19,098 nt of DNA, taken from positions 1 through 19,098 of the forward strand of contig CAMNZV010000009.1 of NCBI GenBank assembly GCA_946575275.1. The letters are read 5' to 3'. Each line of letters begins with the position of its first letter. Position 1 is the stretch's first letter. Below are positions 239 to 13,144 of this stretch, piece after piece. Source of the DNA: an uncultured Clostridium sp. (GTDB taxonomy: Bacteria > Bacillota > Clostridia > Clostridiales > Clostridiaceae). A program made the position numbers and the translations under genes. The notes beneath the pieces are model-generated. The model was not told the origin of the DNA, made no database searches, and saw only the letters and a program-made list of their open reading frames with translations.

Positions 239-2524
239 ATGAAGAATATAATAATGAAGGCTATTTCCATAATAATGATGTGTATATTTACATCAACAGT
301 ATTTGGATGTACAAGTAAAAATAATAAGATTTCAGAAACAAGATATTCAGAAGAACAAATTAACATTCCAGAGCTAACTAATGTATACGATGTGAAATTA
401 TTTGAAAATCAAATTAGTCTTATTGGAAGTGATTCAAACAATACATTAGTAGATACTTATAACAGTGATAAAGACACATGGATATATTCTCCTATAAATA
501 TTCACTATGAAGGAAAAATAACTGATGATGATGCTACCCTTCAAGCATTATCAAATGATAAGTCTATAGAAAAATATGCACCTATTGATGCAACAGTATC
601 AGATGAAGGAAATATGGCATATATTGACTATGAAAAAGCTAAGGGAAAAGATAATATTAATCATAATATTTATACAACTGATAGAAAAACAATAGCTATA
701 GATATAAATAAAGAAATATTAGATAGCTTAGGTGATATTAACTATTTAAACAGCAAGGATTTATTTGCTATTTCAGAGAAGGATATATATCAATATAATG
801 GAGAAACTGGAAAGCTAAAGTTTCAATACCATATTGAGACAGGAAGTATACTAAGTCAATGTTACATAGACAATAATTTATATGTAGTAACTACAAGTGG
901 ATTTGAAAAATATGACACTAATACAGGAAAAAAGGTAGAGGATATAGATTCTCTTAGGGAATATGTCGATTCAAACACTAAGATATTTAAAGGTATTGGA
1001 ACAAAGATATTAATTAGAAATTCAAAAGGTTTATTTAGATATAAAACAAATGATGGAACAATTGAAAAAATAATTGATGGATCCTATACATTACTAGGTG
1101 ATAGTCAATTAGATGTGGTAAGTATATTAGAATATAATAAAACAAATACAAATTCAAAGTATGAATACATGGTATTATACAAGGACAATAGCAACAATAA
1201 ATTCAGCCTTTATAAATATAAATATTCTGAGAAGCTATCCAATAAAGAATTAACAGAAATAAGTATTTATTCATTATATGAAAATGAAAGCATAAAACAG
1301 TTTGCAAGGAAATATCAAAATGATAAAGATGATATTAAAATAAATTATGAATTTGGTATAGGGACTTATGGAGGATTAACTGAAGATGATGCTCTAAAGA
1401 AACTTAATACTGAGATAATGGCAGGAAAGGGTCCAGATATACTTTTATTAGATGGTATGAATTCAGAATATTATGAAGAAAAAGGTATATTAGAAAACTT
1501 AGATGATATTGTAGAGGAAAACAAAGAGGATTTATTTTCAAATATCATAGATAGCTTTTATAAAGGTAATAAAATATATCTAATTCCAATTAATATAAAA
1601 ATACCAATGATTATGGGTAAAAAGGATGTAGTTTCAGATGGGGAAGATATAAAAAGTTTAGCCAATAGTATAGAAGATAATTTAAAAAATCAAGATATAA
1701 GTATTATGAAAATATATAATCCAGAAGATATTATAAATCTTATGTATTTCACATCATCAAAGGATTTTATTGATGGAAAAGATTTGAATGAAGAAAGTGT
1801 AAAAAGTTTTCTAGAAAATACTAAAAAGATTTATGATATATCAAAAAATAAAACTAATAAAGATGAGTACAAGCTATATAATGAGTCAAGTAATAAATAT
1901 AAAGAACAATATGGAGATGGAGAATTATTTTCTAAAAATATATTCTTAACTAAGTCAATAGGACCAAATGATTTTGTGAAAAAGGATATTACAAATGTAG
2001 ATTTGGGTTATGTAAGTTCATTGGCTGATGTATCAAGGGTATTAGGAACTGTAAATAATAGAGACGATATAAGTTATAAATATTTTTCGGGAAATGGTGA
2101 AAAGTTATTTTTGCCTGGAAATGTTGTAGCTGTAAATTCCAAAAGTAAGAATAAAAAGATGGCAAAGGAAATAGTTTCTGATATATTAAAGAATGAATAT
2201 TTTAATTCAGATACAGAAGGTATATTTACTACTAATAAGAAATTGCTTGAGAATAGTTTTCAGATAAATAAGGATAAGGGTATTGGTAGTATTGGAATAG
2301 GAAATGAAGATGGAGAAGTTTTAATTCCAATAAAGTGGCTAGATAATGAAAATTACAACTATATAATAGATACCATAAATAGTTTAGAAGGTAGTATAGA
2401 TACTAATACAATAGCTTTAGATCCTATTTTAGACTATGGGAAGAAATATATTTTAGGGGATATGTCTATAGATGAGACCTTAAATAAGATTTCTAAGGAT
2501 TTGAATATAAAATTGGAGGAATAA
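239..2524 (+). CDS. Large lipoprotein: repeat/propeller-like N-terminus plus ABC-type solute-binding domain
   Basis: Probably the extracytoplasmic substrate-binding subunit of the ABC system encoded just downstream. The 761-residue product starts with a lipoprotein signal: a hydrophobic stretch at about residues 6-22 and a lipobox VFGC with the lipidated Cys at 24. The C-terminal part (about 338-760) resembles family 1 (sugar-type) solute-binding proteins: it opens with a beta strand and ends of an amphipathic helix ('SIYSLYENESIKQFARKY'), followed by the typical 'AGKGPDILLLD' at about 395-405. The part before it (about 40-330) consists of short strand-rich units such as 'IYQYNGETGK' and 'FEKYDTNTGK', recalling beta-propeller blades. 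Usual family length is about 400-450, so this protein has an extra domain of about 300 residues. The start has GGAG at 227-230, eight bases upstream. The gene is one base from the next start. Ligand unknown. Confidence 0.75.
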   Translation: MKNIIMKAISIIMMCIFTSTVFGCTSKNNKISETRYSEEQINIPELTNVYDVKLFENQISLIGSDSNNTLVDTYNSDKDTWIYSPINIHYEGKITDDDATLQALSNDKSIEKYAPIDATVSDEGNMAYIDYEKAKGKDNINHNIYTTDRKTIAIDINKEILDSLGDINYLNSKDLFAISEKDIYQYNGETGKLKFQYHIETGSILSQCYIDNNLYVVTTSGFEKYDTNTGKKVEDIDSLREYVDSNTKIFKGIGTKILIRNSKGLFRYKTNDGTIEKIIDGSYTLLGDSQLDVVSILEYNKTNTNSKYEYMVLYKDNSNNKFSLYKYKYSEKLSNKELTEISIYSLYENESIKQFARKYQNDKDDIKINYEFGIGTYGGLTEDDALKKLNTEIMAGKGPDILLLDGMNSEYYEEKGILENLDDIVEENKEDLFSNIIDSFYKGNKIYLIPINIKIPMIMGKKDVVSDGEDIKSLANSIEDNLKNQDISIMKIYNPEDIINLMYFTSSKDFIDGKDLNEESVKSFLENTKKIYDISKNKTNKDEYKLYNESSNKYKEQYGDGELFSKNIFLTKSIGPNDFVKKDITNVDLGYVSSLADVSRVLGTVNNRDDISYKYFSGNGEKLFLPGNVVAVNSKSKNKKMAKEIVSDILKNEYFNSDTEGIFTTNKKLLENSFQINKDKGIGSIGIGNEDGEVLIPIKWLDNENYNYIIDTINSLEGSIDTNTIALDPILDYGKKYILGDMSIDETLNKISKDLNIKLEE

Positions 2525-2525
2525 G

Positions 2526-3395
2526 ATGATTAATGGAATAAATATAAGCAAAAAAGTGAATAGAAACTATAATAAAAAAGGATTAGTTTTTATTTTACCA
2601 AGTTTGCTAGGATTAATAGTGTTTATATTTATTCCTTTTTTAGATGTAGTAATTAGATCTTTTCAGGATGAAATATCTAGAGAATTTATAGGATTGTCAA
2701 ATTATAAGGATATATTTACTAATAGTGCTTATAAATTAGCTTTATTTAATACAATTAAGTTTACAATTATATGTATTCCATTACTATTAGCAATTTCATT
2801 GATTATATCAGTTTTACTAAATAGAATTGTAAATAGTAAAATTTCAAATTATATAAAAACAGGTTTCCTTCTTACATATGTTGTTCCCACTGCTTCAGTT
2901 GTATTAATATGGAAGATATTTTTTAGTGAAAAGGGATTAATAAATGGAATGTTTTTTAAGTTGGGATTTCAAGAAATAGATTGGATGAATAGCAAATATG
3001 CCTTCATTGTACTTATAATTAGCTATTTATGGAAGAACCTTGGGTATAGTATTATTTTATGGTTAACTGGAATAAATGCAATTAATAAAGAAATTATTGA
3101 AGCAGCAATGATAGATGGAGCTGGAGAGTATATTATATTTAAAAATATAATACTACCTAATTTAAAAACTTCTTTTTACATAATTACTATTATTTCTATA
3201 ATAAATACTTTTAAAGTATTTAGAGAAGCCTATCTTGTTGGTGGAAATTATCCAGATGAGAGTATGTACATGTTACAGCATGTTTTTAATAATTGGTTTG
3301 TTGCTTTATCCTTTGGAAAGATTGCAGCAGCGTCAGCAATAATGGCAATTATTATTACTTTATTAATTATTGTTCTTAAAAATCAGTGGAAATAA
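2526..3395 (+). CDS. ABC importer permease, MalF/UgpA type
   Basis: Membrane subunit of a carbohydrate-type ABC importer. The 289-residue product has about six hydrophobic segments, with the first near residues 18-42. The EAA cytoplasmic loop that docks the ATPase is clear at about 189-211 ('EIIEAAMIDGAG' followed by 'ILPNLK'). Length fits the family. The start codon follows the preceding stop by one base, and the ribosome binding site GGAGG lies in the end of the solute-binding gene, so the two are probably translationally coupled. It should pair with the next gene as a heterodimer. No ATPase is encoded here, so a shared MsmX/UgpC-type ATPase elsewhere in the genome is the likely energy source (inference). 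Confidence 0.88.
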   Translation: MINGINISKKVNRNYNKKGLVFILPSLLGLIVFIFIPFLDVVIRSFQDEISREFIGLSNYKDIFTNSAYKLALFNTIKFTIICIPLLLAISLIISVLLNRIVNSKISNYIKTGFLLTYVVPTASVVLIWKIFFSEKGLINGMFFKLGFQEIDWMNSKYAFIVLIISYLWKNLGYSIILWLTGINAINKEIIEAAMIDGAGEYIIFKNIILPNLKTSFYIITIISIINTFKVFREAYLVGGNYPDESMYMLQHVFNNWFVALSFGKIAAASAIMAIIITLLIIVLKNQWK

Positions 3396-3416
3396 GAATA
3401 TTGGGTAGGTGAAAAG

Positions 3417-4256
3417 ATGAAGAGGAAAATAATCACAATAGCACTTGTACTTATGGGATTTCTATTTACAATGCCCATAATTCTTCTTATTATATTTTCT
3501 TTAATGGGAAAACAAGAATTACTAGACAGTTTAGGGTCTATATTATCAAATTCAGATAAATATATAAAATTAATATTTATGCCAAAGTATCCAACATTTA
3601 AATCCTATATAAAGGTATTATTTGATTCGCCAGAGTTTTTCGTTACATATTGGAATTCAGTTAAAATTGTTATTTTTGTTTTATTTGGACAGATAATTAT
3701 AGGAGTTCCTGCAGCATGGGGATTTGCAAAATATAATTTTAGATTTAAAAGCTTCTTTTTCACCTTATATATAGTTGTTATGCTTATGCCATTTCAAGTT
3801 ACAATGCTATCAAGTTATTTATTACTTGATAAATTGAATCTTATAAATACTCACCTAAGTATAATATTACCAGGTGTTTTTTCTACATTTTCAATATTCA
3901 TAATGTATAGATCCTTTAAGGTAATACCAAATGAAGTTATTGAAGCTGCAAAGGTAGATGGGGCAGGAGATCTAAATATATTTTTAAAAATAGGACTACC
4001 CCTTGGAAAAAGTGGGATTATATCGGCAATGTTATTACAGTTTTTTGAATATTGGAACATTATGGAGCAACCCTTAACCTATCTTTCAGATAAGGCTTTA
4101 TGGCCACTATCACTATATCTTCCAAATATAAGTTTAAGTTATGCAGATATTAGTTTTGTAGCATCAACAATTGTTTTAGCAACATCAATATTAATATTTC
4201 TTTCAGGTGAAAAATATTTAGAAGAGGGTATTTCTACATTAGCAGAAAAGGAATGA
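3417..4256 (+). CDS. ABC importer permease, MalG/UgpE type
   Basis: Second membrane subunit of the importer. The 279-residue product has about six transmembrane segments, the first near residues 5-29, and an EAA loop at about 173-195 ('NEVIEAAKVDGAG' followed by 'LPLG'), the contact site for the ATPase. Residues 30-75 form a larger than usual soluble stretch between the first two membrane segments. The gene begins 21 bases after the upstream permease, with AGGTG at about 3406-3410 as ribosome binding site. As an ordinary MalF/MalG pair these two would form a sugar or other small-solute pore, but the adaptor and MacB-like genes that follow are not part of standard sugar importers. Confidence 0.88.
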   Translation: MKRKIITIALVLMGFLFTMPIILLIIFSLMGKQELLDSLGSILSNSDKYIKLIFMPKYPTFKSYIKVLFDSPEFFVTYWNSVKIVIFVLFGQIIIGVPAAWGFAKYNFRFKSFFFTLYIVVMLMPFQVTMLSSYLLLDKLNLINTHLSIILPGVFSTFSIFIMYRSFKVIPNEVIEAAKVDGAGDLNIFLKIGLPLGKSGIISAMLLQFFEYWNIMEQPLTYLSDKALWPLSLYLPNISLSYADISFVASTIVLATSILIFLSGEKYLEEGISTLAEKE

Positions 4257-4260
4257 TTAT

Positions 4261-5466
4261 ATGAAGTTTGAATTTAAAATACCAAATAAGATAAATAATA
4301 AATATATAAAGATATTAATATATTTCCTAATTACTATGATATTGCTTACATTTGTATCTAGATTATCTAAATCACTTACTGTACCAGTGGTACAAACTGT
4401 AAAAATACAGTCAGCAGAAATAAAGAATACTGTTTCAATTAATGGAATGGTAAAGGGAAATGAAAATGTTACTATAAACAGTATAGAAGGATGTAAGGTA
4501 AATAATATTTTTGTCTCAATTGGAAGTCAGGTTAATAAGGGAGATATACTATTTCAGATTGATTTAGGCAGTATTTCAGAAAAGCTATTAGATATTCAAA
4601 ATCAGATTGATGTAAAAAGTAAAGCCTTAGAAAGAGCCAATGAAGATTATAATTATGCAAAAAAGTCAGAAGAACAAAAAATAAATAATGCAAGAAATGC
4701 AATGATAAAGGCAGAAGGATTGCCAGAGTATGAAGAACTTAAAAATAATTATGAAAATTTATTAAGTGATAAGGATTATAGCCTTACCTCATATAAAAGA
4801 GCTATAGAGGATTTAAAACAGGATAATTCTTTGCAAACCTTAGAAAGTATCAAAAATAATTATAATAATATAATTAAGGAAAATGGTAACATAACAGCAA
4901 GCTGTAGTGGTGTTGTTTCAGAAATTTTCATTTCTAATGATACTGTGTCTGATGTTGTATCTGCAATGGTAATTACAGATATATCAAAAGGTATAAGATT
5001 TGAAGGTAATGTTTCAGCTTTAGAAGGAGAAAAAATAAAGAATGGAATGAAGGCAACACAAAATAGTGGTGACTTAGAATATACTATAAAGTCTTGCGTT
5101 GTAGATAAAAAGGATAGCAATATGGCAAATGTTATAGCAACAATAGATTATGACAAGGATATTGAAATAAACTTTGGTAAGAATATTACTATTGATGTTG
5201 TTTTATCTCAGGAAGAATACAGTGATTGCATACCATTTGAGGCATTAAGAGCTGATTCAAATAAATATTTTATACTTATACTTAAAGAGGAAAATTCTTT
5301 TGTTGGAACTATATATAAGGCTGAAAGAATTAATGTGGAAATAATTGATAAAAATTCTAGGTTAATAGCAATTAAAAATACTGAAATTAATTTGGATGAT
5401 GAAATTATTATAGGTAGCAATAAAAATGTATTTACAGGTGATGAGGTAAGGAAGGATAATGAATGA
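4261..5466 (+). CDS. Membrane-fusion/adaptor protein, HlyD/MacA/YknX type
   Basis: An extracytoplasmic adaptor anchored by one N-terminal membrane helix (about residues 16-33). It has the split-hairpin layout of the family: a first half of a biotinyl-lipoyl-like domain at about 70-102 ('VNKGDILFQIDLG'), a lysine/glutamate-rich coiled coil at about 103-205, the second lipoyl half at about 209-242 (beginning 'ITASCSGVVSEIFI'), then a beta-barrel region from about 245. At 401 residues it is a normal length for MacA/YknX-like proteins. In Gram-positive bacteria such adaptors usually work with MacB-type ABC permeases, which fits the next gene. It starts four bases after the MalG-type gene and overlaps the next gene by four bases, so it belongs to the same operon. 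Role with an importer-type permease pair is unknown. Confidence 0.8.
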   Translation: MKFEFKIPNKINNKYIKILIYFLITMILLTFVSRLSKSLTVPVVQTVKIQSAEIKNTVSINGMVKGNENVTINSIEGCKVNNIFVSIGSQVNKGDILFQIDLGSISEKLLDIQNQIDVKSKALERANEDYNYAKKSEEQKINNARNAMIKAEGLPEYEELKNNYENLLSDKDYSLTSYKRAIEDLKQDNSLQTLESIKNNYNNIIKENGNITASCSGVVSEIFISNDTVSDVVSAMVITDISKGIRFEGNVSALEGEKIKNGMKATQNSGDLEYTIKSCVVDKKDSNMANVIATIDYDKDIEINFGKNITIDVVLSQEEYSDCIPFEALRADSNKYFILILKEENSFVGTIYKAERINVEIIDKNSRLIAIKNTEINLDDEIIIGSNKNVFTGDEVRKDNE

Positions 5467-6476
5467 AAAGATTAATTGTCAATTTAATTTTAATAATTAT
5501 TATGATTTTTTCAGTAGGAAGGGCAATATATAATTATGAATATCTATCTAAAAAAAGTAATGTAGTAAATGTATATTTAAATGACTCTAAATATACCAGT
5601 GAATATTTTGATAACATAAAAAAGGATGAGGATTCTTACAGTTTTGTACCTTGGAGGCAAGCTGATAATAAGCAAATATTCAATGAAGATTTAAATAGAA
5701 GTTTGGAAGCTAATATTTTTCAGCTGTATGGTGATTCATCATTTCTTTTAGATGGTAGTATACTTTTTAGAGATGATATTAATGGGTGTTTAATAGATGA
5801 AGATACGGCATATGGTCTTTTTGGGTCTATAGATGTTAAGGGTAGAAGTATACTTGTAGATAATAGGGAGGTAGTGGTTAGAGGAGTTAATAATAAATAT
5901 GAAACTACTATATTTATACAGGGTATTTCAAATAGTAAGGAGCAGGTGGAGGGAATTTCTTTATGGATTCCTTCAAAGGGAGATGTATTTAATTCAAAGG
6001 ATTTTGTAACTACATTTATTATGAAATATGATTTGAATAATTGTACTGTAGATAGCAATATATATAATACTATTGCAAGTGTTTTTATGATGATATTGTT
6101 TATTCTTATAGTAATATCCATGATAAATTATATAATTAAATATAAACCTATAATGGCATTATCATATATGGTAGTTGGATTAATATTAACTTTAATTACA
6201 AAATTAATTCTTAAAATAAGATTTATTATACCAATAAATAGTATTCCAAGTAATTGGTCAGACTATAAGCAATTTAGGGAGGTATATATCAGCGCAGTTG
6301 AAAATTTTAAATATTTTTTATATGTAAAGAAATATAGTATAGATATAGATAGGTTAAATAGTACCATTAATGTGTCTATGTATATTATATTAACCATTAT
6401 TTTATTTTTTATTGTAACTAAAAGGCTAAGAAAAGTTTCAAGGAAAGAATTAAATTTACTTGATGATTTAAAATGA
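5463..6476 (+). CDS. MacB/FtsX-like membrane protein without ATPase domain
   Basis: I do not recognise a named family member, but the layout is that of a MacB/FtsX-type permease. There is one N-terminal membrane helix (about residues 5-22), an extracytoplasmic region of about 180 residues, then three membrane helices (about 203-225, 230-250 and 303-319). Residues 107-143 resemble the MacB periplasmic core: 'GCLIDEDTAYGLFGS', then 'DVKGRSILVD' and 'VVVRGV', matching the family pattern of a conserved Ala plus LFG, a G-rich turn, and a final V-x-GV strand. The ATG overlaps the adaptor's TGA (ATGA), indicating translational coupling, as for MacA and MacB partners. No nucleotide-binding domain is fused or adjacent. 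The MacB link is inference from short motifs and topology; it could be a divergent membrane protein of another kind. Confidence 0.6.
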   Translation: MKRLIVNLILIIIMIFSVGRAIYNYEYLSKKSNVVNVYLNDSKYTSEYFDNIKKDEDSYSFVPWRQADNKQIFNEDLNRSLEANIFQLYGDSSFLLDGSILFRDDINGCLIDEDTAYGLFGSIDVKGRSILVDNREVVVRGVNNKYETTIFIQGISNSKEQVEGISLWIPSKGDVFNSKDFVTTFIMKYDLNNCTVDSNIYNTIASVFMMILFILIVISMINYIIKYKPIMALSYMVVGLILTLITKLILKIRFIIPINSIPSNWSDYKQFREVYISAVENFKYFLYVKKYSIDIDRLNSTINVSMYIILTIILFFIVTKRLRKVSRKELNLLDDLK

Positions 6477-6602: not shown

Positions 6603-6870
6603 GCCGTGCTAGATGGGGAGTTAGCGGTGCCCTATAACCTGCAATCCGCTATAGCAGGATTGAATTCCCTAGGTAGGTACTAATTTGTATGGCCTGCCCT
6701 ATATAAGTGGTGTTGATAGTTGGGTCCCACGCAAGGAAACCCATGAACCTCGTCAGGTCCGGAAGGAAGCAGCGATAAGTGGTCACTTTTCTGTGCCGTG
6801 GATCAATCTGACTTGAGCTAACTGTATAGGTAACGCATATAAATTTTTACCGAGCTAGGGTGCACGGTTC
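6603..6870 (+). ncRNA. ffs/scr: Signal recognition particle RNA (long, Bacillus-type scRNA with Alu domain)
   Basis: This RNA is the scaffold of the signal recognition particle, which targets nascent membrane and secreted proteins. The diagnostic apical region is at 6752-6773 (GTCAGGTCC, a GGAA tetraloop at 6761-6764, then GGAAGCAGC), the binding site of Ffh. Terminal pairing of GCCGTGC (6603-6609) with GCACGGT (6862-6868) closes the molecule. The 5' part (about 6605-6670, with GGGGAG, GCGGTGCCC and CCTGCAATCCGCT) matches the Alu domain I recall from Bacillus subtilis scRNA, which the short E. coli 4.5S RNA lacks. Length of about 268 is close to the 271 nt of B. subtilis. Its position upstream of dnaX is also conserved there. 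Exact mature ends are inferred from the terminal helix. Confidence 0.95.
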
Positions 6871-10232: not shown

Positions 10233-11744
10233 ATGAAGATTTTAGAAGGAATATTAAAATATTCAGAAACTAATAGAATAGCTTTAGTATGTGATAATGA
10301 AAAAATGAAATATAGTGAACTTAATACAAATTCTGAGGCCATAGCAGCTTTTATATTAGAAGCCTTAGGAAAGGATAATACACCAATAGTTATTTATGGG
10401 AATAAGGAAAATTTAATGATGTGTTGTATGATGGCCGCATTAAAATCAGGAAGAGCATATATACCTATAGATATTTCCTATCCTAAGGAAAGGGTTGAGG
10501 CTATAATTAATGAAGTAAAACCTAAAATACTTTTTGATTTTAGTCATGAAAATACCTTTAGTAACATAAAAACAATAAAACCATCAGATATAGACTTAAT
10601 TATTAAGGAATATAAAAATATAAAGATAGATAAAATAAATTGGGTAAAAGATGATGAAAATGCCTATATTCTTTTTACCTCTGGAAGTACAGGAAAGCCT
10701 AAGGGAGTTCAGATTAGCAGTAATAATTTAAATAATTTTGTATCATGGATTGTAGATTATTTAAAACTAGATGACAGTGAAGAAATCTTTATGAATCAGG
10801 CAGCATATTCCTTTGATTTATCCGTTACATCAATATATCCAGCATTAAGTTATGGAAAGACATTACATGGATTTTCAAAGAAAACCTTAGAAAATTTAAA
10901 GGATTTATTTGAAGACATAAGTAGTTCTGATATTAATTTCTGGGTATCAACTCCATCCTTTGCAGGAATGTGTGTGGCAGAAGATAGCTTTAATTCACAA
11001 ATGTTAAAAAATCTTAAGGCAATGATATTTGTTGGGGAGGTTTTGCCAAGACCATTAAGTAAAACATTATTAGACAGATTTGAAAATACAAGAATAATTA
11101 ATGGATATGGACCTACAGAAGCTACAGTTGCAATAAGTGCAAATGATATTACAAGGAAAACCATTGAAGAAAATGAAAGTCTTCCTATAGGCTATCCAAT
11201 GAAAACATCAATAGTTAAAATAGTTGATGAAAAATTAAATATTTTAAAGGAAGGTGAAAAGGGAGAAATAATAATAGTTGGACCTAGCGTAAGTAAGGGA
11301 TACTATAATAATGAAGAAAAAACAAATGCAAGTTTTTATTTTGATGATTATAATGGAAAAAAGATGAGAGCCTATAAAACAGGGGATTTAGGATATTTTA
11401 TTAATAATAACCTATTTTACTGTGGCAGAAAGGATTTTCAGATAAAACTTAATGGTTATAGAATAGAAATAGAAGATATTGAAAATAATTTAATTAGGGT
11501 TAACAATGTAAAAAATGCAGCAGTGGTACCTATTATAAAAAATGATAAAATTGCATATTTAACAGCTTTTGTACAACTTACAGAAAAAAGTGACTTAGGA
11601 AGTTTAAAAACAGGAATACTTATAAAAAAGGAAGTATCAAAATTAATTCCTTCTTATATGGTACCAAGAAATATAAAAATAATAGATGAATTTCCTACTA
11701 ATATTAATGGAAAAATTGATAGAAAAAGATTGTTGGAGGAATAA
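10233..11744 (+). CDS. dltA: D-alanine--DltC ligase (D-alanyl carrier protein ligase)
   Basis: Activates D-alanine with ATP and loads it on the DltC phosphopantetheine arm in the cytoplasm, the first step of teichoic acid D-alanylation. The 503-residue product is a standalone adenylation enzyme: 'LFTSGSTGKPKG' at about 147-158 (ATP loop), 'NGYGPTEAT' at about 290-298, 'KTGDLG' at about 382-387, 'GRKDFQIKLNGYRIE' at about 398-412, and the C-terminal catalytic lysine in 'NGKIDR' (K494). At residues 266-271 it reads 'FVGEVL' where the family, as I recall it, has 'FCGEVL'; that Cys has been linked to choosing D- over L-alanine. AGGGG at 10221-10225 is the ribosome binding site. The identity is firm from motifs and the dltX-A-B-C order. 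Confidence 0.93.
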   Translation: MKILEGILKYSETNRIALVCDNEKMKYSELNTNSEAIAAFILEALGKDNTPIVIYGNKENLMMCCMMAALKSGRAYIPIDISYPKERVEAIINEVKPKILFDFSHENTFSNIKTIKPSDIDLIIKEYKNIKIDKINWVKDDENAYILFTSGSTGKPKGVQISSNNLNNFVSWIVDYLKLDDSEEIFMNQAAYSFDLSVTSIYPALSYGKTLHGFSKKTLENLKDLFEDISSSDINFWVSTPSFAGMCVAEDSFNSQMLKNLKAMIFVGEVLPRPLSKTLLDRFENTRIINGYGPTEATVAISANDITRKTIEENESLPIGYPMKTSIVKIVDEKLNILKEGEKGEIIIVGPSVSKGYYNNEEKTNASFYFDDYNGKKMRAYKTGDLGYFINNNLFYCGRKDFQIKLNGYRIEIEDIENNLIRVNNVKNAAVVPIIKNDKIAYLTAFVQLTEKSDLGSLKTGILIKKEVSKLIPSYMVPRNIKIIDEFPTNINGKIDRKRLLEE

Positions 11745-11747
11745 TTA

Positions 11748-12905
11748 ATGAATTTTGATCAATATGGAGACTATTTATATTTATATTTATTATTAATTAC
11801 ATTAATTCCAGCAATAATATTAATTTTAAATAAAAAATCTATAAAATATTATGGGATTATATCCTCATTTTTTATAATAATATTATTAATGGGCTTTAGA
11901 ACTACGCAATTTCAGCTTTTCATAAGTTTTCTTATTGGAGAATTTGTAGTTATATTTGGGTATCTGTATATAAGAAAGAAAACTGATAACAAATATTTAT
12001 ATTGGCTATTTTTATTAATGTCAATGTTTCCATTAATAATAACAAAACTAGCTGGTTTAACAGAATATGCTTCAATAATTGGATTTATAGGTATATCATA
12101 TTTAAGCTTTAAGGCAATACAAATGATAATTGAGATTTATGATGGAGCTATAACTAAAATAAATATAGGAACATTTATATGCTTTATTACTTTTTCACCT
12201 ACATTAAGCTCAGGGCCTATTGATAGATGGAAAAGATTTAATGAAGACATTGAAAGACGGTTAGATAAAAAGGAATATATAGAAGATTATTTATTAATTG
12301 GAATACAAAAAATTGCAATGGGTGTTGTATACAAGTTTGTTTTAGCTTATTTAATAAATACATATTTATTATTAAAAATACCTACAACAATTTCCTTATT
12401 AAGTAGTATTCAATATATGTATGTATATACACTTTATCTATTCTTTGATTTTGCAGGATATAGCCTATTTGCAGTAGGTACTAGTTATATTTACGGAATA
12501 AAGACTCCGGAAAATTTTAACAAACCATTTAAAAGTAAGGATATGAAGGAGTTTTGGACAAGATGGCATATATCTTTATCAAGGTGGTTTGGAGATTATA
12601 TTTTCTCAAGATTTGTACTTAATTCTATGAGAAAAAAGAGATTTAAAAGTAGATTTACAGCTTCCCATGTTGCACAAATCTTGACAATGTTTATAATGGG
12701 ATTATGGCATGGATTTACTGTGTATTATATTTTATATGGACTATATCAAGGGATAATATTAGTATTAACTGATATATATCAAAGAAAATCCAAGTTTTAT
12801 AAAAAAAATAAAAAGAATAAGTGGTTCAATTTGGTTCAGGTCATAGTTACCTTCCATCTAATTTGTTTTGGAATGCTTATTTTTTCAGGATATTTATTTA
12901 AATAA
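11748..12905 (+). CDS. dltB: D-alanyl transfer protein DltB (MBOAT family)
   Basis: Membrane-bound O-acyltransferase that uses D-alanyl-DltC on the cytoplasmic side to pass D-alanine across the membrane toward teichoic acid. The 385 residues are dominated by hydrophobic helices. The two MBOAT histidines are visible: H274 in 'FWTRWHISLSRWFGDY' and H321 in 'GLWHGF'. 'SSGPIDRWKRF' at about 154-164 is also a conserved family stretch. It is slightly shorter than the roughly 400-415 residues common elsewhere. It starts three bases after dltA, using the GGAGGA at the end of dltA as ribosome binding site, so expression is coupled. dltC follows after 11 bases. Confidence 0.93.
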   Translation: MNFDQYGDYLYLYLLLITLIPAIILILNKKSIKYYGIISSFFIIILLMGFRTTQFQLFISFLIGEFVVIFGYLYIRKKTDNKYLYWLFLLMSMFPLIITKLAGLTEYASIIGFIGISYLSFKAIQMIIEIYDGAITKINIGTFICFITFSPTLSSGPIDRWKRFNEDIERRLDKKEYIEDYLLIGIQKIAMGVVYKFVLAYLINTYLLLKIPTTISLLSSIQYMYVYTLYLFFDFAGYSLFAVGTSYIYGIKTPENFNKPFKSKDMKEFWTRWHISLSRWFGDYIFSRFVLNSMRKKRFKSRFTASHVAQILTMFIMGLWHGFTVYYILYGLYQGIILVLTDIYQRKSKFYKKNKKNKWFNLVQVIVTFHLICFGMLIFSGYLFK

Positions 12906-12916
12906 GGAGGAAGATT

Positions 12917-13144
12917 ATGAAGGAAAAGGTTTTAGAAATATTAATTGAAGTTACAGGAAATGATGATATTCAAGAGGACTTAGATTTAAATTTATTTGAA
13001 GCAGAATTACTAGATTCTTTGGGAATTATTGAAGTATTATTACAAATTGAAGAAAAACTTAAAATAAAGCTTCAACCAACAGATTTAGAAAGAGAAGATA
13101 TGTCTACAGTAAATAAGCTTACTGCTTTTCTTGAAAAAAGGTAA
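12917..13144 (+). CDS. dltC: D-alanyl carrier protein DltC
   Basis: Small acyl-carrier-type protein that holds D-alanine as a thioester on a 4'-phosphopantetheine arm and delivers it to DltB. The 75-residue acidic helical protein has the attachment motif 'LLDSLGIIEVL' with the modified Ser at 34. AGGAGG at about 12904-12909 precedes the ATG. In many Firmicutes the next gene would be dltD; here ybaB follows after 50 bases. The operon therefore ends without dltD, which must be elsewhere in the genome or absent. Confidence 0.92.
   Translation: MKEKVLEILIEVTGNDDIQEDLDLNLFEAELLDSLGIIEVLLQIEEKLKIKLQPTDLEREDMSTVNKLTAFLEKR

Follow-up and report, generated by a model that had tools for sequence, protein, structure and literature searches.

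A gene cassette that joins a sugar-type ABC importer with MacA- and MacB-like proteins

We find that the genes of a sugar-type ABC importer are conserved together with those of a MacA-like adaptor and a MacB-like membrane protein, in a five-gene cassette that has a copy at positions 239–6476 (+ strand) of a contig of 19,098 nucleotides from an uncultured Clostridium sp. of the class Clostridia (CAMNZV010000009.1, assembly GCA_946575275.1). This complete contig (C9 of a draft genome that is 71% complete) is called the window below. The importer is represented by a solute-binding protein (SBP) and two permeases (PM1 and PM2), the adaptor is a membrane fusion protein (MFP) and the MacB-like protein is called MAC. 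Going by their names, these genes would be taken for a sugar importer next to efflux components. A well-supported branch sets the permeases of the cassettes apart, some copies have importer-like ATPases beside them, and no ATPase splits the MacA/MacB-like pair. The cassette represents a widespread, apparently undescribed branch of the sugar-type importers and is found in at least 47 of 391 sampled genomes of the class, about one in eight. Here MacA and MacB parts have naturally been put to new use without their ATPase, a case that can inform on the mechanical role of those domains.

Conservation of the five genes

The five open reading frames (ORFs) of the window follow each other in the order SBP-PM1-PM2-MFP-MAC, with gaps of 1, 21 and 4 bases and then a 4-base overlap of MFP and MAC. 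The ORF list of the window thus reproduces exactly the five positions and the spacing given in an earlier note on this DNA, made from the sequence alone. As that note also stated, there is no ATPase gene within or adjoining the operon in the window, the bases upstream of position 1 being outside view. The features of the operon, including predicted transmembrane (TM) helices and the domains identified with Pfam and NCBIfam, are as follows.

239–2524, + strand: SBP, a lipoprotein of 761 aa with lipobox Cys24, a beta-propeller-like N-terminal part and a C-terminal solute-binding domain
344–1243, + strand: beta-rich part of SBP, residues about 36–335, read as a propeller
1247–2521, + strand: solute-binding domain, residues 337–761; the nearest solved structure is CbpC of C. 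thermocellum
2526–3395, + strand: PM1, a permease of the MalF/UgpA type, 289 aa, PF00528 (BPD_transp_1); nearest models GlcT/UgpA
3099–3125, + strand: EAA loop of PM1, EAAMIDGAG in the sequence, which we take to be the docking site for a MalK-type ATPase, as expected for the family
3417–4256, + strand: PM2, a permease of the MalG/UgpE type, 279 aa, PF00528 (BPD_transp_1); nearest models GlcU/UgpE
3942–4001, + strand: EAA loop of PM2, in which 19 cassette PM2 proteins all have E176, D181, G182 and P195
4261–5466, + strand: MFP, an adaptor of the MacA/HlyD type, 401 aa, with a single N-terminal TM helix (RND_mfp, E 1e-14, under the model cut-off)
4486–4563, + strand: lipoyl-like half motif of MFP (PF13533, under cut-off)
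5212–5451, + strand: C-terminal, presumably membrane-proximal part of MFP, retained, like the TM anchor, where relatives have a reduced MFP
5463–6476, + strand: MAC, a membrane protein of MacB fold, 337 aa, with four predicted TM helices and no nucleotide-binding domain (MacB_PCD)
5562–6056, + strand: MacB-like extracytoplasmic core of MAC, residues about 34–198, with a fold like MacB/YknZ
6243–6266, + strand: motif IPSNWSDY, located between TM3 and TM4 of MAC and nearly invariant in a 19-member subfamily

When genome contigs were scanned with a profile of the MacB-like alignment, 22 named loci were obtained. About half of the 22 are in Clostridium, and 18 of the 22 have the order SBP-PM1-PM2-MFP-MAC on one strand; the 18 include loci of Clostridium, Paraclostridium, Robinsoniella and Vagococcus. 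The remaining ones are truncated by contig ends (L042, L044 and L045) or incomplete (L046). At L036, SBP and PM1 are separated by a pair of histidine kinase and response regulator genes, which lie on the opposite strand. The order is SBP-SBP-MFP-MAC-PM1-PM2 in the genomes G250 and G364 and MFP-MAC-SBP-PM1-PM2 in G195, and a Subdoligranulum plasmid carries the cassette in the usual order. The MAC of Vagococcus, used as a query against plasmids, gave no match.

In a reverse test the PM2 alignment was searched in the 391 genomes, and the resulting counts are lower bounds because scoring was limited to about the six best candidates of each genome. Cassette-type PM2 is present at 51 places or more, in 47 genomes of 19 family codes, all scoring at least 238 bits, with 224 as the next score; the 51 places include the window, G070 (the contig of L030), L077 and L078, and some of them were used in building the profiles. 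An MFP gene adjoins 50 of these 51 places, and the exception, L217, ends 148 bases after PM2. MAC adjoins 43 (42 by profile and L222 by Pfam), and weak profile matches of 25–51 bits were obtained at L078, L149, L218, L219 and L220. Three of the eight places without a MAC match are cut by a contig end (L213, L216 and L217), and the others are L214, L215, L221, L223 and L224. Beside lower-scoring sugar permeases, neither MFP nor MAC was found at any of 15 places (L225–L239), 12 of which were chosen as controls and three of which lie just under the score gap, L225 having 224 bits. The possibility that the five genes do not co-occur in other genomes, on which the earlier note made its case depend, is contradicted by the 18 loci, the three reordered genomes and the MFP beside PM2.

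A quick maximum-likelihood tree of 83 PM2 proteins has a single branch (SH-aLRT 100) that parts 63 cassette rows from 20 others; it is midpoint-rooted, and the program warned that long branches meet. One of the 20 carries a cassette label but is an ordinary permease next to the L120 cassette. Pairwise distances correlate with r of 0.83–0.90 (n = 52) for PM1-PM2, PM2-MFP, PM2-MAC, MFP-MAC and PM1-MAC, the five of six component pairs that were computed, and the observed value was reached in 0 of 999 permutations; shared ancestry contributes to this agreement. There is good support for the view that importer and MacA/MacB-like parts are inherited as a single functional unit, and the coupling of the five genes is not chance.

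The cassette resembles the MalFGK2/CUT1 importers that use a shared MsmX-type ATPase, since it has an SBP, two BPD_transp_1 permeases with EAA loops as in MalFG, and a putative ATPase partner that is encoded elsewhere or is of the MalK kind. It differs from them in occupying its own side of the PM2 tree, in the MFP and the MacB-like subunit that accompany PM2 at 50 and 43 of 51 places, and in its SBP, which often has 700–900 aa. A search of titles and the starts of abstracts, with most subscription journals outside its coverage, found no description of MFP or MacB-like subunits in a sugar-type importer.

The adaptor and the MacB-like protein

The window MFP has the N-terminal anchor, lipoyl and membrane-proximal domains of a MacA/HlyD adaptor; it scores under the cut-offs of the RND_mfp, MacA and HlyD models, and a profile search finds MacA structures. 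Four cassettes (L214, L221, L223 and L224) have reduced MFPs of 122–252 residues, and since these match only about positions 1–72 and 343–433 of the 436-position profile (the first match being weak for L221), the lipoyl and hairpin part is absent from them. Other cassettes have enlarged MFPs of 600–760 residues. According to passages of PMC5985334, the membrane-proximal domains of MacA contact MacB in MacAB. We infer that the part kept by the reduced adaptors is probably the docking part and that the tube would be dispensable.

MAC was described in the earlier note as having MacB/FtsX topology. The MacB half of this description holds, as the protein has a MacB-like periplasmic core and four predicted TM helices (the window MAC matches MacB_PCD with E 3.7e-5 and 24.5 bits, the cut-off being 27), but the FtsX half does not, as a Pfam search found the FtsX domain (PF02687) in 0 of 19 members of the MAC family. 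In MacB, the coupling helix sits between TM2 and TM3. The window model has a turn of about 3 residues here and lacks an FtsX-like coupling helix; a longer TM2-TM3 loop of about 30 residues remains in some distant cassettes (L064/L104). An FtsX coupling-motif pattern, which matched just 3 of 16 comparison proteins, was dropped as a test in favor of Pfam. Counted simply by hydropathy, a procedure that may miss helices and here includes a few incomplete pieces, the 52 cassette MACs have one (4), two (18), three (4), four (14), five (8) or six (4) TM helices, and 17 canonical MacB-type proteins have four (12) or five (5). The WS(D/N)(F/Y) form of the MAC motif is present in 16 of the 52. Weak MAC matches were first taken as ordinary MacB permeases, and many turned out to be cassettes when their loci were inspected.

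The genes for MFP and MAC are −219 to +24 bases apart, measured between open frames, at all 54 cassette places that have both (38 from reverse-test loci and 16 others including the window). In canonical MacAB/YknXYZ-type loci, an ABC ATPase ORF stands between the MFP and the MacB-type gene in 17 of 17; these were classed from 49 loci with weak MAC matches, part of a longer list, and their ATPases were recognised by motif (14), by locus table (L148) or by Pfam (L132 and L138). The Walker/signature test overlooks some real ATPases, as L132, L138, L106, L110 and L117 were recognised by Pfam, and for this reason the statement that no ATPase separates MFP and MAC is based on gene distances: the genes touch in 54 of 54 places and leave no room for one. 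The pair shows neither an ATPase of its own, fused to or beside the MFP, nor the MFP-ATPase-permease set of YknWXYZ or MacAB. Compared with MacAB-TolC, YknWXYZ and Spr0693-0695 (type VII ABC efflux), with which the cassette shares an MFP of the MacA/HlyD kind, a partner of MacB fold and close genes, it lacks the intervening ATPase and gave no FtsX match in the 19 family members, its TM count varies, and in four relatives the MFP has no middle part. The adaptor and the MacB-like protein likely act together, as the earlier note proposed, although four cassettes have the adaptor and no MacB-like gene.

One could argue that the operon holds two machines, and that MFP and MAC are a small efflux pump, driven in trans by a borrowed ABC ATPase of the YknY/MacB type or another kind, and merely co-transcribed with the importer. 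The MacB fold of MAC and the occurrence of YknXYZ-type loci in the same class agree with this, as do the non-MalK-like ABC ATPases just upstream in L106, L110, L117 (301 aa) and L212 (311 aa), the ATPase and FtsX protein downstream of the cassette in L027, and the position of the Vagococcus cassette behind genes for a peptide of the double-glycine type and a C39 peptide exporter. We nevertheless hold this explanation to be quite improbable, as MFP and MAC leave no room for the ATPase that all 17 canonical loci have between them, the site of the MacB coupling helix is just a short turn in the window model, 18 of 52 cassette MACs show just two TM helices, and at 50 of 51 places the permeases have the MFP beside them, even where the gene order has changed.

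Some MFP-MAC pairs lie outside the cassette. Genomes of family code f19 (L112, L113, L115, L119, L122, L123 and L131) contain pairs without a recognised ATPase or cassette permeases, which were excluded from the cassette counts and are possibly another ATPase-less offshoot of MacAB; in L112 and L115 the pair is followed by a two-TM protein of 521–545 aa. In L128 (7677–8402), an ABC-ATPase-like ORF of 241 aa that failed the Walker/signature test stands between MFP and MAC and is possibly a degenerate ATPase.

ATPases, the CbpC relative and possible function

Importer-like ATPases adjoin five cassettes (L027, L108, L200, L203 and L214). The OB_MalK domain is found in the adjoining ATPases of L027, L108 and L203 and, in L200, in the end piece of an ATPase that lies upstream of PM1, the downstream ATPase being cut; it was not found in the 322-aa ATPase of L214. 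All nine genomes tested, the window's own included, encode an ATPase 58–63% identical to that of L027, and the one in the own genome (G000:C132:1881-2981) contains OB_MalK, is 61% identical and has neighbours that look like starch/maltose genes. The earlier note had raised the idea of a shared ATPase, which these genes support. Judged by sequence, their distribution would fit a shared ATPase of the MsmX type, and shared importer ATPases are known in Bacillus and C. thermocellum (PMC5730181; passages of PMC9601137).

The only cassette relative found with a bench study is CbpC of C. thermocellum, for which the first paper is reportedly that of Nataf et al. 2009. The genome G429 encodes it (100% identity over 381 residues), and its locus, L143, is a cassette of the same five parts in the order CbpC, an AAA-type ORF, PM1, PM2, MFP in two frames and a MAC of 473 aa, with PM2 on the cassette side of the tree. 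This system, transporter C, differs from the window in that CbpC has 460 aa and no long N-terminal part, in the AAA-type ORF between SBP and PM1, and in its MFP, which is split between two ORFs, of 300 and 152 aa, that overlap (L143:9634-10987), given which the C. thermocellum cassette may be impaired. Reports on sugar binding disagree. Passages of PMC8303734, PMC3492117 and PMC11212667 have CbpC binding glucose or cellodextrins, and in passages of PMC9601137 it bound no sugar tested, a loop blocks its pocket, and a mutant in transporter C showed normal growth on glucose, cellobiose and Avicel. In the passages of these four papers the system is treated as a sugar transporter and the MacB-like gene is unmentioned; a figure legend in PMC9601137 names an 'acra' gene, the cluster of which is not stated there. 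The operon is given in PMC8303734 as Cthe_2125-2128, a definition that, by our reading of that passage, leaves out the MFP and MAC genes. The cassette offers a testable explanation for the contradictory sugar-binding results.

The SBP domain of the window lies under the Pfam threshold, and it has the SBP_bac_1/8 fold, which is also predicted by structure; Pfam matches the domain in four relatives (L025, L035, L038 and L040) and not in a 222-aa piece of L009. The structure matches of the whole protein are filled by this domain. In SBP relatives the N-terminal beta-rich part has a SxDxGxTW motif, which we take to be Asp-box-like.

We put at about even the chance that the cassette is a distinct clade of type I (MalFG-like) importers with outer subunits derived from MacA and MacB, a shared MalK/MsmX-type ATPase and a collar or funnel. 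Such a clade would have acquired two standing subunits, a MacA-type adaptor and, in the majority of copies, also a membrane protein derived from MacB. The shared ATPase would drive PM1 and PM2 through their EAA loops, and the membrane-proximal part of the adaptor and the MacB-like core, with no pumping of their own, would make up a collar or funnel outside the cell, anchored in the membrane. This structure could dock one or several SBPs and guide a large or wall-associated ligand, a glycan or a peptide, into the permeases.

Several observations weigh against this proposal. Agreeing distance matrices would also be produced by common descent alone, and no fusion between the five components is seen among 729 matching ORFs at all loci examined. 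The five-part machine is not universal, as four cassettes (L214, L215, L221 and L223) have an MFP and no MAC and as L224 has a 303-residue membrane protein of no family at the MAC position; L046 consists of PM2-MFP-MAC with other genes in place of SBP and PM1. The non-MalK-like ATPases upstream of four cassettes and the ATPase-FtsX pair beside L027 also count here, as do the failure of CbpC to bind a tested sugar, its blocked pocket and the normal growth of the knock-out on three substrates in the passages of PMC9601137.

Alternatively, the importer engine could do its work outside the cell, with MalK-driven permeases moving the MacB-like core and the adaptor, as a mechanotransmission machine whose motor has been exchanged, for example to extract or reposition an envelope ligand instead of importing it. 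MacB itself acts by mechanotransmission, with no substrate passing through the membrane (passages of PMC5985334), MAC has no adjoining motor of its own, and the pocket of CbpC is reported as blocked (passages of PMC9601137). On the other hand, this explanation relies on a hypothetical contact between PM1/PM2 and MAC, and four otherwise complete cassettes have no MAC; we consider it improbable. The broader claim, that a MalK/MalFG-type motor powers a MacA/MacB-derived extracytoplasmic device without an ATPase of its own, be it for funnel import of very large ligands or for mechanical work on the envelope, we regard as unlikely.

Another option is that SBP, permeases, MFP and MAC detect an envelope ligand and that a neighbouring two-component system reads the signal, as in BceAB-type modules. 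Two-component genes are indeed found within 4 kb at 15 of 61 cassette loci, about a quarter, compared with 0 of 15 lower-scoring permease loci; all six query proteins were taken from cassette loci, a choice that favours the cassettes. The kinase/regulator pair between SBP and PM1 at L036 and the study in which CbpC bound no sugar (PMC9601137, in passages) point the same way. However, 46 of the 61 loci have no such gene in the visible flank, many flanks being short; the window has none downstream of the operon, its upstream side being lost; and canonical MacAB-type loci show a similar rate (5 of 17). The cassette moreover has a different permease type from the BceAB-type modules and possesses an SBP and an MFP, and its EAA loops and adjoining importer-like ATPases suggest ATP-driven transport. 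A role as sensor instead of importer is in our view doubtful.

Neighbouring genes

The 238 bases upstream of the operon contain a group II intron domain (13–88; Rfam, 45.7 bits), and because the contig begins with this intron end just before the operon, the upstream neighbourhood is lost. Downstream lies an SRP RNA (6604–6867), followed at 10233–13144 by AMP-binding, MBOAT and 75-aa carrier-like ORFs, which we take to be DltA-, DltB- and DltC-like and flanked by dnaX and YbaB/RecR; no DltD is seen in the ORF list of the window.

No shared metabolic theme was found among the recurrent neighbours of the cassettes, most of which are ABC ATPases, response regulators and kinases. Among the loci scanned for glycoside hydrolases of this kind, L109 has GH94 genes nearby and L223 a GH36 gene. 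In L106 (13803–16848) and L110 (1540–5001), a 301-aa ABC ATPase and a nine-TM protein of 724–730 aa directly precede PM1, with a GntR-type regulator within the group in L110; the group is a further module joined to the cassette. L110 also has three SBP genes after one cassette, and L103 has two PM1-PM2-MFP-MAC sets in tandem, the second MFP being in pieces. In Vagococcus silagei (L038:2201-4699), a 68-aa Cys/His/Tyr-rich peptide with a VSGG-type (double-glycine-type) leader, a single case, is followed by a C39-peptidase ABC exporter and then by the cassette. In the Clostridium celatum group (L007:4111-4923), the cassette is directly preceded by a cation efflux gene and a gene resembling those of undecaprenyl-phosphate translocases (PF04018).

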